Assembly: GCA_023136245.1 (NCBI GenBank)
Contig: JAGLRO010000045.1
Span: forward strand, 1 to 33,923
Source: Candidatus Heimdallarchaeota archaeon
GTDB taxonomy: Archaea; Asgardarchaeota; Heimdallarchaeia; Heimdallarchaeales; Heimdallarchaeaceae
Direction: 5' to 3'
DNA: 33,923 nucleotides
Each line of letters begins with the position of its first letter. The stretch's first letter is position 1. The translations under genes and the position numbers were made by a program. Below the pieces are notes generated by a model. It was given only the letters and a program-made list of their open reading frames with translations. It searched no databases and was not told the origin of the DNA. Of this stretch, positions 5,636-10,193 are shown in pieces.

Positions 5636-5709
5636 ATTCGCACCTTTAGCAAAATAATACAAACATCCATTGCTATAAATTTTCCTAAATTACGTGATTT
5701 ACAAAATAA

Positions 5710-5800
5710 TGGTGCCCCGAGCCGGAATCGAACCGGCATCTAGGGAATTTTGCTCATAAAGATCCACAATCCCCAACGCTAACCGTTACGCCATCGGAGC
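5710..5800 (-). tRNA. tRNA-His (GTG) with 16-nt intron (5748-5763) at position 37/38; CCA encoded
   Basis: Minus strand: GCTCCGA TG GCGTAACGGTTAGCGT T GGGGA TTGTGG[ATCTTTATGAGCAAAA]T TCCCT AGAT GCCGG TTCGATT CCGGC TCGGGGC A CCA. All stems pair and a canonical BHB splice motif can be drawn (central helix TTGT/GCAA, 3-nt bulges GG^A and AA^T). Confidence 0.9.
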
Positions 5801-5899
5801 ATTATACTGGAGCTTTTATTATCCGTTTTTAAGAATATTGTTTTTTACTATACTCCTATCAATGGTTATGTTTTTATTTCTATTTATTTCAAGTACTCT

Positions 5900-6376
5900 A
5901 TGAGTTCAGGGAAACTGGTGGTTCAGCTTCATAATTTTAGTAGTGTAAATCTTTGCAGAGAATTTGTGAAAATAGCTCTGGGAGTAGGAGCTAGAGACAT
6001 AATATTCTCAAAAGCAGTAGGGGCTGGAGCAACTACAGGAGTTCCAGTTGCACAAAAAATAGCTCACTCAAAACAAGCAAATCTACTTTATTTGCAGGAT
6101 TTAACAGATACAATAGAACTGTTAGCGCCTGATGAAATATATCTATTCATCAAGAGACCATTTTCGAAGACAGTGTTTGATCCTGATAAAATAGCAAAAT
6201 CATATAACGAAGGAAAAACAATACTTCTAGTATTTGGAGGAGCAGAACCAGGATTGACAAAAAAAGAACTAGATAAGGGAATACCTGTGTATTTTGACAA
6301 AATAAATGAAATAGGGTGCTTAGGAGAAATAACTCTAGCACTATATCTGATGAGAAAAATTATAGAAAGAAACTAG
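5900..6376 (+). CDS. SPOUT-superfamily RNA methyltransferase-like protein (COG4080-like, often annotated 'RecB-family nuclease' in archaea)
   Basis: 158 aa; VQLHNFSSVNLCREFVKIAL start, LLVFGGAEPGLTKKEL and IGCLGEITLALYL resemble SPOUT motifs. Confidence 0.62.
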   Translation: MSSGKLVVQLHNFSSVNLCREFVKIALGVGARDIIFSKAVGAGATTGVPVAQKIAHSKQANLLYLQDLTDTIELLAPDEIYLFIKRPFSKTVFDPDKIAKSYNEGKTILLVFGGAEPGLTKKELDKGIPVYFDKINEIGCLGEITLALYLMRKIIERN

Positions 6377-6909
6377 AAAAGTTCATCTTCAGAAACCATC
6401 AGACGAACAAGATTACTGAAAGCTTTTTCAGTATTAGTACCATCTAAAGCAGAAGTAAAAAGAAACTCAGATTGTTTGTATTTACTGCACAAATCTTTCA
6501 AATCTTGCTCAGTGATTTTGAGATCTTTGAGATCACATTTGTTAGCAAGAAAGATGATAGGTTGGTCACCAACTTCTTTAGTGAAAGATTCAACCCAAGA
6601 AGGGAGATTCTCAAAAGTGGTTAAGTTAGAAGCATCACAAACGGCAAGAGCGCCTTTACTGCCAAAGAAATATTTACTGCGAATCTGTTTGAAAACGTCT
6701 TGACCACCGATATCCCAAATAGCTAATGTTACTATGTTGTGTAGATACTCTACTTCTTTTTTCATTATTGTTGTTCCCAATGTTATCTGATACGATGGAT
6801 CGAATAGATTTGTCACATATCTCCTTACTAGTGATGTTTTTCCTACTCTTGCATCTCCTATCAGAACTATTTTGTTCGTTATATGTAACTTCCTTGACAC
6901 TTCACTCAC
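6373..6909 (-). CDS. Ras/Rab-like small GTPase
   Basis: G1 GDARVGKTSLV, G3 WDIGGQDVF, G4 NKCD, G5 TSALDG; GTG start. Shares the palindromic CTAG stop with the convergent upstream gene. Confidence 0.94.
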   Translation of the reverse strand: MSEVSRKLHITNKIVLIGDARVGKTSLVRRYVTNLFDPSYQITLGTTIMKKEVEYLHNIVTLAIWDIGGQDVFKQIRSKYFFGSKGALAVCDASNLTTFENLPSWVESFTKEVGDQPIIFLANKCDLKDLKITEQDLKDLCSKYKQSEFLFTSALDGTNTEKAFSNLVRLMVSEDELF

Positions 6910-6965
6910 TTCTTTACTACTTGTGCTCTTTCTTACTGATAATGTTTACTGTTATGGTAATTCTT

Positions 6966-7820
6966 TTATTTTTCGGCGTAGAATTTTGCTGCTCCGTACC
7001 CTACAACTTGCCTTTTGTCTCCTGAAGCATCTCCTGAAGTTGCATATTTGAGTATCTCAGCTTTTGTTCTTCCCATTTTCTTTGCTGCTTCCATCGTTGC
7101 CGCTATTGGTCCATGTCCACACATTGATACGTTCAGTCGATATTTTATATCATACATTTCCTTTGTTTCCATCTTCTCAATTGCATCTAGCACTTGTTTG
7201 TCTTGTTTAGTTGCTTCCTCATGTGTCATAAAATGTGTGAAATCACTGCTTGCTATAACTATTACGTCTTCTTCTGAGCACGCTTTACTTATCACTTCAC
7301 CCAACATGATGCTTGAATCCAAGCTTTGGTTTAGTAGAGAAATTGGTACGAATTGGAATTTTTCTTGCATTACATATTGAAGAAAAGGTAATTGCACCTC
7401 TATCGAATGTTCTCTAGCATGTGAATTATCATTTCTACTTATCTTTCCTGAACTTTCTACTATTTTATCTATTAACTCGTTATTAATCTGTACATTTCCC
7501 AATGGCGTTTCCCAAGCTTCTACTTTGTCAGGTACGCCTATTTCAGCACCCATTCCAGTGTGGTTTGGTCCAAATATAATTATTGTTCCTGGTTGCTTGT
7601 ATTTGCTCAATTCTAGGTAACTCCATGCTGCTACAGGACCACTGTACATATATCCAGCATGTGGAACTAATAAGAATGGAATAGTTTCATCTATTTTTGA
7701 TTCTTCGCTGGGTAATGCCTGAGGTCCCAACGAACTCATAAAGCTCTCTTCTATTGATTCAACCAATTTATCAGCATTTCTTTTATAAAATGAACCTGCA
7801 TAATGTGCTGGTCTTATCAT
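6966..7820 (-). CDS. MEMO1-family protein (AmmeMemoRadiSam system protein B)
   Basis: MIRPAHYAGSFY, FGPNHTGMG, HAREHSIEVQLPFLQ, SSDFTHF, MCGHGPIAA. Confidence 0.95.
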   Translation of the reverse strand: MIRPAHYAGSFYKRNADKLVESIEESFMSSLGPQALPSEESKIDETIPFLLVPHAGYMYSGPVAAWSYLELSKYKQPGTIIIFGPNHTGMGAEIGVPDKVEAWETPLGNVQINNELIDKIVESSGKISRNDNSHAREHSIEVQLPFLQYVMQEKFQFVPISLLNQSLDSSIMLGEVISKACSEEDVIVIASSDFTHFMTHEEATKQDKQVLDAIEKMETKEMYDIKYRLNVSMCGHGPIAATMEAAKKMGRTKAEILKYATSGDASGDKRQVVGYGAAKFYAEK

Positions 7821-7859
7821 AAGTCAACATAATGCTTCTAATAAAAAAATATTCCGTAC

Positions 7860-10193
7860 TTATGGTAGAACAGAAAAATCAAGATTCATATCCTTCAAAA
7901 GTGAAACATATTTTCTTCCTGCTTCGGAATAGAGAGCCGTTCCATTTATTTGTTTGATTCTTATCTTTCTTTGTGCTTCTTCTTTCGTTTGAGTTACATA
8001 TTCTTGTATAGCACTAAAGATAAACATCAATGTGTGTGAATCATTGAATTCAGGTAAGATTTCTATGTTGTTTACATAAGTCACTTTTTCTTGTTTCTTG
8101 AAATGAAGTGCTGCAGCAGGTTCCCCATTCAAGAGTATTAATTCCGCAAAATCTGTTGGTAAGGATTTCAAGAAGAACTGTCTTATTTTGAATCTCTTCA
8201 ATAGAAAGTTCCTGTATAGAATCAATAGAGGATCATTTCTTGGCAAATATGTCATGATTACTTGATCAATGTCCTCCTTTTGATAAATAAATGCAACAGT
8301 CGATTTTTCTACATCTTTTGACGTGAATTGAACATCTTTCTCTTCCTCAATAAATCTCCCAGACCTTACTCCTTTAGATGCGATCAACTCTTTTAGATAA
8401 ACTTCAACTTGTGTGTTTGATAAACCAGTTATATTCGCAATTTGATTGATTGTCAGAGGTAGGTTAGTTGACAGGATACGATTGATTATTTCTACCCATG
8501 CTTGTTTCTGAGTATCTATACGCTTTACTTTAATATTTCGTAAAAATTTAGACTTCGACAGCCAAATGGCTTGATTTGATATTGATTTAGATTGAATAAT
8601 TTCATGAGCATTTTCCAAACGAAGTAATGCAGAAAGCAGAACTCTGTCAGAGAGTTTCAATGATTTTCTTAGTTGTTCAAAACTTACCCTTTCCTTTTGC
8701 TTAACTAGATTCAAAATTCTCTCTTCTAGAACACCTAAATGCCTAGAGGGGCTCAATTTAGAGTAAGTTAAATAATCTTCAGCTGTAATGTAACCTCTTG
8801 TAAAAGCGCCAAATTTACCAATAACAATCTGTCTGTCAATAATCATTTGATTGATCATCTGTTGCCTTCCCTGTCTTACTCTTATCATCAAGGAATTAAG
8901 AGGAAGGGGAATACCTAAGGATGATAAACCATGTAAAATCTCAGCTTTATTATCATATTGTCTCTTCTTTTGCAAGAACTGAGATGTGAGTAAGTAAGGA
9001 AAAATCTGATTCCATGAGATTAGATTCTGACTTGTTTCTGTTCCTGAAAGTCGCGAAATGTGGTAAACAAGACCAGCTGATCGTTTTGAGTACCCTCTTT
9101 GGGTCATAATGTTAGCGATTTCTACAGATTGTTTTTCAATGAGCTCAGATTGTAATTGTGGAAAAACAAGAATTTTCCCTTTGTTTTCTGAAAAACCTTG
9201 TATATTTCTTCGTATTTCTTCCTCTAGATTTGAATATTCATTGGTTTTTCTTAGATTAATAATGTGAAGATTATCTCCTTTAATTTTATAATCAAATGAA
9301 CATACAGGTTTTCCTGAAACAATAACAAGATCCTTTTGAATATCTTCTAATAGCATAAAATCTGCTGATGCCCAATACTCAGCATAAGGATCATTTGAGG
9401 GTATAATCGTAATTTCCTTCTTCTTATCTTGTGAATCGTGCTCTAGAAAATTCTGCAAATAATCCAATTCATCAGAAGAAAGAAAAGCTTCATAACTAGA
9501 ATTCTCAATGAAATGTCCTCTGATTATTTTCTTGTTTTCATACAGTTCTATGATACTTGTACTAACCCTGCCACCTGATAATTTCAACATATTAGTTATT
9601 TGAGGGACTGTAATTGGACCAAAACTCATAATCGTACGAAGAATCAATTCGGTTACAGCTAATGATTTACTCATAGTATCAGAATCTATTATTAAATTAG
9701 TGCTATATATTGTCCAATTTGTTCCATCATAAAACATGAAAACCTGAAAATTTGTTCTTAGTTCTGCTAAGATATCCATTACTTCATCTTTGGATAATCC
9801 AAAATGTTCTATTATCTTCAAACGAGTAGCTGAACCTTCATCATTTAAAAAATCAAGAACTTTCTTTGTATTCTGGTTCTTATATTCAAATTCATCTTTT
9901 AACAAACTGAAATAGTAATAAGCGAGAATCTCTTTTCCAACATAGACTAGCTTTCCTTCTTTAAATGGAGCTTGAACTAAATGCTTATTCTTGACCAAAG
10001 AAGGTATTAATGAAGCTGAGAACGTCCTCATTCTTGTGAAAAGAGATTCAGGATCTTGAAATTGTCCTATGTTATTAATCAGTGAAATCGCATGACCATA
10101 ATTTATTCCCTTATACTTCTGAATCAAACCTTGTTTCTCTGCAACATAGAGAGCTAATTGTTCAAGATTTAAGGTTACATGTTCTACTGCCAT
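7860..10193 (-). CDS. AlkZ/YcaQ-like or Lhr-CTD-like tandem winged-helix protein (putative DNA glycosylase-related)
   Basis: 777 aa; N-terminus AEKQGLIQKYKGINYGHAISLINNIGQFQDPESLFTRMRTFSASL resembles the AlkZ/HTH_42 N-terminus with a QxQ motif (Q44-F-Q46). Two winged-helix plus beta-barrel-like modules (RGHFIE...IIPSNDPYAEYW and SGRFIE...YLPRNDPLLILY). Confidence 0.6.
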   Translation of the reverse strand: MAVEHVTLNLEQLALYVAEKQGLIQKYKGINYGHAISLINNIGQFQDPESLFTRMRTFSASLIPSLVKNKHLVQAPFKEGKLVYVGKEILAYYYFSLLKDEFEYKNQNTKKVLDFLNDEGSATRLKIIEHFGLSKDEVMDILAELRTNFQVFMFYDGTNWTIYSTNLIIDSDTMSKSLAVTELILRTIMSFGPITVPQITNMLKLSGGRVSTSIIELYENKKIIRGHFIENSSYEAFLSSDELDYLQNFLEHDSQDKKKEITIIPSNDPYAEYWASADFMLLEDIQKDLVIVSGKPVCSFDYKIKGDNLHIINLRKTNEYSNLEEEIRRNIQGFSENKGKILVFPQLQSELIEKQSVEIANIMTQRGYSKRSAGLVYHISRLSGTETSQNLISWNQIFPYLLTSQFLQKKRQYDNKAEILHGLSSLGIPLPLNSLMIRVRQGRQQMINQMIIDRQIVIGKFGAFTRGYITAEDYLTYSKLSPSRHLGVLEERILNLVKQKERVSFEQLRKSLKLSDRVLLSALLRLENAHEIIQSKSISNQAIWLSKSKFLRNIKVKRIDTQKQAWVEIINRILSTNLPLTINQIANITGLSNTQVEVYLKELIASKGVRSGRFIEEEKDVQFTSKDVEKSTVAFIYQKEDIDQVIMTYLPRNDPLLILYRNFLLKRFKIRQFFLKSLPTDFAELILLNGEPAAALHFKKQEKVTYVNNIEILPEFNDSHTLMFIFSAIQEYVTQTKEEAQRKIRIKQINGTALYSEAGRKYVSLLKDMNLDFSVLP

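Follow-up and report, generated by a model that had tools for sequence, protein, structure and literature searches.

We analysed a 33,923-nucleotide stretch of DNA (the window), which is contig C205 of a Candidatus Heimdallarchaeota metagenome assembly of 2.27 Mb, 264 contigs and 83% completeness. The window genome is labelled G000 and the related genomes G001 to G023. Codon choice was scored at silent sites, namely four-fold plus isoleucine sites, with the purine (R) or pyrimidine (Y) state read on the plus strand. The signal described here is centred within a gene for a Ras-like small GTPase and spreads into its two neighbours, a MEMO gene and a DUF2122 gene, the latter convergent with the GTPase gene and overlapping it at 6373-6376. 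The features of the locus are:

5642 to 6721, plus strand purine-rich: left arm, R 0.86 over 137 silent sites, from segment scoring
5900 to 6376, plus strand: DUF2122 gene, convergent to the GTPase gene (PF09895, 9.5e-22)
6373 to 6909, minus strand: Ras-like small GTPase, 178 aa (PF00071, 2.4e-36)
6700 to 6726, minus strand: GTPase codons 62-70 (LAIWDIGGQ); a displaced 3' remnant in G020 (WDIGGQEV) and a 3' half in G015 start with homologous sequence
6721 to 6727, no strand: flip point between GTPase codons 61 and 63, from the silent-site listing and changepoint
6727 to 7632, minus strand purine-rich: right arm, plus-strand R 0.19 over 134 silent sites, from segment scoring
6966 to 7820, minus strand: MEMO gene (PF01875, 2.1e-78)

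The preliminary description of this DNA had reported an abrupt switch of codon dialect inside the GTPase gene, near 6724. Its codon counts were reproduced almost exactly, and the signal proved stronger than reported. Codons 1-62 use ATA for isoleucine (6), GGA for glycine (3), ACR for threonine (7), GTR for valine (7, against 1 GTT) and AGR for arginine (4); codons 63-178 use ATY (6), GGY (6), ACY (7), GTT (6) and CGY (2) for the same amino acids. Coding-strand R is 0.97 in codons 1-61 and 0.02 in codons 62-178, with a changepoint at codon 62/63 (LLR 46.9) that was matched in 0 of 1000 permutations. The last purine-side silent site lies at 6721 and the first pyrimidine-side site at 6727 on the plus strand, placing the flip within 6 bp. 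A switch statistic computed from 30+30 silent sites either side of a candidate point reaches 0.97 at the flip, compared with a maximum of 0.67 among 5000 permutations of the window's silent sites, and the purine and pyrimidine segments score 71 and 58 against permutation maxima of 46 and 26.

The skew is greatest at the flip and fades away from it. At four-fold and isoleucine sites the plus strand is 98% purine in 6400-6700 and 16% purine in 6700-7000; in successive 300-bp bins the purine share runs 71, 86 and 98% from 5800 to 6700 and 16, 19, 31 and 42% from 6700 to 7900. Outside the flip zone no 300-bp bin on the contig exceeds |z| of 3, and nothing comparable occurs elsewhere in the window, so such swings are not routine along the contig. 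A zone of ~1.9 kb had been proposed; a skewed zone does exist, but it extends over 5642-7632 (~2 kb) and fades with distance instead of ending at gene borders. A model of a saturated centre with exponential tails gives an amplitude of 1.00 and decay lengths of ~703 bp on the left and ~738 bp on the right. Skew is back at background within ~1-1.5 kb of the flip, and a replichore-scale skew of the kind found at a replication origin or terminus is therefore not seen.

The flanking genes bear on whether the pattern follows the DNA strand or the gene, as a strand rule had been suggested. DUF2122 is purine-ending, with R of 0.73 in codons 1-79 and 0.85 thereafter (isoleucine codons 13 ATA, 1 ATT and 1 ATC), and MEMO is likewise purine-ending, with R of 0.69 in codons 1-142 and 0.76 thereafter. 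MEMO, the GTPase gene and the oppositely oriented DUF2122 gene thus obey a single sign-flip rule with similar decay on both sides, and DUF2122 is the one gene that tests the rule across gene orientation. The rule breaks down in the 91-bp gap upstream of DUF2122 (5808-5899), which is pyrimidine-rich on the plus strand (R 0.34). Purine richness along whole sense strands does not describe the contig either, as the GTPase sense strand flips and the sense strands of the other genes are ~0.5 purine. Two-fold sites show no consistent A:G or T:C shift (G fraction 0.18-0.38 inside versus 0.25 outside, C fraction 0.26-0.39 versus 0.24, all from small samples), and four-fold G+C is ~0.14-0.22 inside the zone and 0.16 outside. 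With two-fold sites and G+C unchanged, only the purine/pyrimidine (transversion) choice clearly moves. Inverted or mirror repeats at the flip centre amount to short, chance-like pairs, a search for structured RNA at the flip site returned nothing beyond tRNA-His, and promoter- and terminator-like sites occur at shuffle level.

Comparison of orthologous loci, which had been suggested as a check, indicates that the flip is not a property of the protein. The gene order gatE-Ras1-coaD-DUF2122-GTPase-MEMO-p777 is kept in most relatives (Ras1 and coaD are inverted in G022), and their GTPases are 63-78% identical. Most of these relatives have no GTPase flip, so the flip does not follow from the GTPase protein. 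G003 has a weaker flip at codons 67/68 (R 0.73 to 0.18-0.19, LLR 13-14); in a concatenated-protein tree it lies beside G006, which has no flip, with the window genome on a separate branch. Between G003 and G006 the silent transversion rate is 0.30 in the GTPase gene (19/63) versus 0.10-0.14 in p777, DUF2122, coaD and gatE, an excess of ~2.5x over background, and 17 of the 19 transversions are polarised, with purine in G003 before the flip and pyrimidine after it. MEMO shows 0.24 for the same pair, unpolarised. The G011-G008 pair has the same tendency (11/75 silent transversions in the GTPase gene versus 0.05 in p777, 9 of the 11 polarised). From this polarised excess in close pairs the process looks recent and directional. 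Pooled P-type ATPase pairs show no clear substitution excess near the flip.

A sister clade has an insertion point just where the window has its flip. In G020 the GTPase beside MEMO is intact but chimeric (L020:8041-9202 and L082:58-1154): relative to sister alleles its codons 67-177 are 84-87% identical and its codons 21-61 are 89-92% identical. A native-like 3' half lies displaced on another contig, beside DUF2122-coaD-Ras1-gatE, where it begins at TGGGATATTGGTGGACAAGAAGT (WDIGGQEV) and is 91-94% identical to G011, G012 and G008 and 87% to G016. The simplest reading of these sequences is that an insertion at the flip spot restored the GTPase with a 3' half of its own; its two junctions are assembled on different contigs. 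The chimeric gene has no purine side in its 5' half (0.51), and the genes at both visible ends of the insertion are pyrimidine-rich on the GTPase coding strand, which is not the pattern predicted for a break centre. The two assembled ends carry unknown genes only, with no integrase, endonuclease, recombinase or intein match, and the flip sites as a whole yielded no nuclease, intein or recombinase.

Other relatives are also altered around this gene. In G001, 1.1 kb of DNA bearing a secreted-type gene has been inserted between the GTPase and DUF2122 genes (L014:8557-9802), and beyond it the last 20 codons of the GTPase survive as a remnant; G015 has a GTPase 3' half starting at GGQEV. A TnpB/OrfB-like gene, recognised by eye, occupies the expected GTPase place next to MEMO in G015 (L203:157-1410). 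In G011 (contig C11) a second GTPase copy is separated from DUF2122 by 5.2 kb of inserted DNA, which holds three long genes similar to one another (L208:474-5734). The window genome has a single LAGLIDADG_3 match, on another contig (G000:C202:4441-4728), within a 1086-codon open frame that is likely an intein.

Flips recur in other genes. With a threshold of LLR above 9, and in a scan that reached about a quarter to a third of the 2.27 Mb window genome, 4 of 483 of its genes have a purine-to-pyrimidine changepoint; a Lokiarchaea-dominated control set of 293 genes has none above that threshold in either direction. The P-type ATPase of the window genome flips at MTGDG^VNDA (LLR 13.0), and those of seven other species (G001, G005, G008, G009, G011, G012 and G015; LLR 25-45) flip at or within ~12 codons of the same point, with bases that differ between species. 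The pooled profile places the flip within about six codons, and the flip-bearing genes other than that of the window genome have the same fading shape, with decay lengths of 440-1290 bp. The flip is slight or lacking in G002, G004, G007, G010 and G014. Among paralogs, L255 and L256 flip near the same motif (LLR 7.9 and 12.8), and in the window genome's paralog on L148 the largest change comes further along the gene, at codon 675 of 730 (LLR 11.1). This recurrence is the strongest support among the other sites, although the seven species are related and the flip may reflect a single origin that was then maintained. The TFB gene of the window genome flips at codon 93 (R 0.77 to 0.30), with weak flips also in G013 and in G023, the latter a more remote relative, and Ras1 of G021 flips at codon 48 (LLR 26).

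The flip sites sit in conserved coding motifs of conserved genes (WDIGGQ, TGDGVND); judged by eye, the flip centres share no DNA motif. The P-type ATPase and TFB orthologs examined contain no intein-like insertion, and IMG/VR yielded no viral carriers of the GTPase or TFB. A general flip at all small-GTPase DxxGQ motifs was considered and rejected, as the effect at such motifs is only weak (0.075 +- 0.040). In a first scan of the window genome and related contigs, every switch above 0.5 ran from purine on the left to pyrimidine on the right; G001 and G022 have some switches of opposite sign, near -0.6, and the extreme segments of these two genomes are partly short, repetitive or transposase genes, so that these counts are not strong evidence. 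We note that the purine-left/pyrimidine-right arrangement is its own reverse complement; inside a gene, a DNA rule and one based on coding direction would therefore give the same polarity. The divergent gene upstream of the P-type ATPase was rejected as a strand-rule test, being too distant and with the cold clade looking similar.

Further breaks in composition or assembly were seen in the course of these comparisons. In G022 two adjoining ABC permease-like genes (L124:7930-10024) have purines at 83-84% of their silent sites, and the second flips strongly (LLR 30) close to its end. The thermosome gene of the window genome (L065:2691-4352) changes in the opposite direction, from 6% purine in its first 110 codons to 38% after, and the GlyRS-like gene that follows TFB (L034:8992-9588) has a 3' end that is 91% purine at silent sites. 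Contigs break near flip sites inside TFB in G008 (C71/C198; codons 125-171 overlap) and inside a P-type ATPase paralog in G013 (C191/C221; codons 679-724 overlap); these could be structural variants or ordinary assembly breaks.

We propose, with a probability of roughly 0.4, that recurrent site-specific breakage or insertion followed by strand-polar repair or gene conversion best explains these data. A fixed point, opposite strands on each side, similar exponential tails and recurrence together point to repeated breakage or insertion with repair running outward. The flip would mark a place where a sequence-specific event keeps recurring. That event would most likely be a double-strand break or the arrival of a mobile element whose target is the DNA encoding a conserved protein motif, in the window LAIWDIGGQ of the GTPase. 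Each event would be repaired by homologous recombination or gap synthesis outward from the site, over an exponential tract of ~0.7 kb. Such repair would be strand-polar, the 3'-ended strand on each side gaining or keeping purines and the outward-synthesised strand becoming pyrimidine-rich; purines on the 3'-ended strands would place them on the plus strand in the left arm and on the minus strand in the right arm, at constant G+C. Repeated events could saturate the silent sites as purifying selection preserved the protein.

The footprint, its return at the same sites in other genomes and the G020 insertion site are direct observations. From them we infer a break, a nuclease or integrase that would make it, and a biased step that may be either mutation or conversion. 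At the molecular level the bias might arise from mismatch correction during strand invasion, or from a polymerase that tends to mispair pyrimidines with pyrimidines while filling gaps. Mismatch processing is not pinned down by gene content, since the window genome encodes NucS as well as MutS family proteins. The preliminary description had raised a recombination or conversion junction and a strand-bias inflection, and both the conversion and the strand-bias ideas survive here in modified form. A simple junction between two dialects is insufficient, as the far ends fade exponentially, the arms are native and the flip recurs at the same codon elsewhere.

Selection on transcripts, also among the causes raised in the preliminary description, offers a different account, which we regard as unlikely: a need for purine-rich RNA would act on the sense strand before the flip and on the antisense strand past it, perhaps protecting overlapping convergent transcripts from early termination, such as DUF2122 read-through running into the MEMO-GTPase transcript at 6724. 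The convergent overlap of DUF2122 with the GTPase gene fits this account, the same polarity inside a gene is predicted, and one report describes sense-strand purine bias as selected in bacteria to avoid Rho (PMC13323073). Yet the gene downstream of TFB is co-directional, as it is at the P-type ATPase loci with a visible downstream neighbour, so that a convergent partner is absent there; the signal also peaks at one point with an exponential fade, and sense strands elsewhere in the contig are ~0.5 purine.

A local replication effect, in which a small initiation, termination or fork-collision site has its first kilobase copied with strand-specific bias, is in our judgement rather improbable. It would account for a sign flip at a point, since leading strands are treated oppositely on either side, and it corresponds to the replication-linked strand-bias inflection suggested previously. 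The zone, however, spans only ~1 kb per side and the skew is gone within ~1-1.5 kb, an unusually short range. Flips inside conserved protein motifs, their coming and going between sister species, and the presence of several such sites per genome argue against it as well.

Ranking next, and also improbable, is an imported dialect, whereby the arms would derive from a mobile element or donor with biased strands that left a mosaic. G020 lends this some substance, having replaced its 3' half at the same site, followed by a gene with a pyrimidine-rich plus strand. Both window arms, however, consist of host genes that resemble those of relatives to an ordinary degree; the arms fade instead of ending and would require two donors of opposite bias, and the P-type ATPase flip has been kept in seven other species even as the bases themselves turned over. 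Chance clustering or a chimeric assembly joint at 6724, for which a 264-contig, 83% complete metagenome assembly gives some grounds, is very improbable given the permutation tests, the intact GTPase protein, the same gene order in most syntenic relatives and flips at the same sites in independent genomes.

Recurrent breakage or insertion with strand-polar repair would, if true, have wider implications. We tentatively suggest that Heimdall-type archaea may have an undescribed break or insertion system acting at conserved motifs, with repair that imprints purines on the 3' strand over ~1 kb each side; the candidate target spots are the small GTPase, the P-type ATPase and TFB, and possibly Ras1 and the thermosome. 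Silent sites by themselves would then preserve a fossil map of break hotspots, showing without experiment where archaeal chromosomes have been repeatedly broken or invaded. It would give Asgard archaea a first map of such hotspots, tied to motif-targeting mobile elements. The signature is clean (purine/pyrimidine only, a sign flip, ~0.7 kb decay) and could help to separate strand-polar conversion from a mispairing polymerase in archaeal recombination. In such genomes, a within-gene break in codon usage is not necessarily a sign of horizontal transfer or misassembly.

Our literature searches found no published description of such a purine/pyrimidine flip, and each of the known systems that resemble it does so in part. 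The proposed mechanism has a precedent for each of its two halves, in human meiotic break hotspots (PMC7615360) and in fungal homing sites (PMC5378118). Gene-targeting integrative elements restore their target with their own 3' end, mainly at tRNA genes. The chimeric gene and displaced native 3' remnant of G020 at the flip site are similar, but the target here is a protein-coding GTPase, and these elements are not known to produce a purine/pyrimidine flip. GC-biased gene conversion likewise shifts composition in a gradient around a site, on the scale of its conversion tracts; here, in contrast, G+C is constant, purine is favoured on one strand and the sign reverses at the centre. The Rho-avoidance bias shares the dependence of silent purine/pyrimidine choice on strand, but it is a whole-gene sense-strand rule in bacteria (PMC13323073), whereas the archaeal sense strand flips within a gene. 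In fungal mitochondria, diversity gradients surround mobile self-splicing introns and homing endonuclease sites, and error-prone repair or co-conversion has been proposed (PMC5378118). Those sites share with ours a conserved coding motif, patchy occupation and an effect that rises towards the site; their gradient is one of SNP density over ~70 nt with no strand flip reported (PMC5378118), and the archaeal flip sites show no intron, intein or endonuclease. Human meiotic break hotspots (PRDM9/SPO11) are flanked by strand-asymmetric mutations, C>N and A>N on the forward strand, that are rare (PMC7615360), whereas the archaeal flip is a gain of purines by transversion, near saturation, at protein motifs and read from sequence alone.
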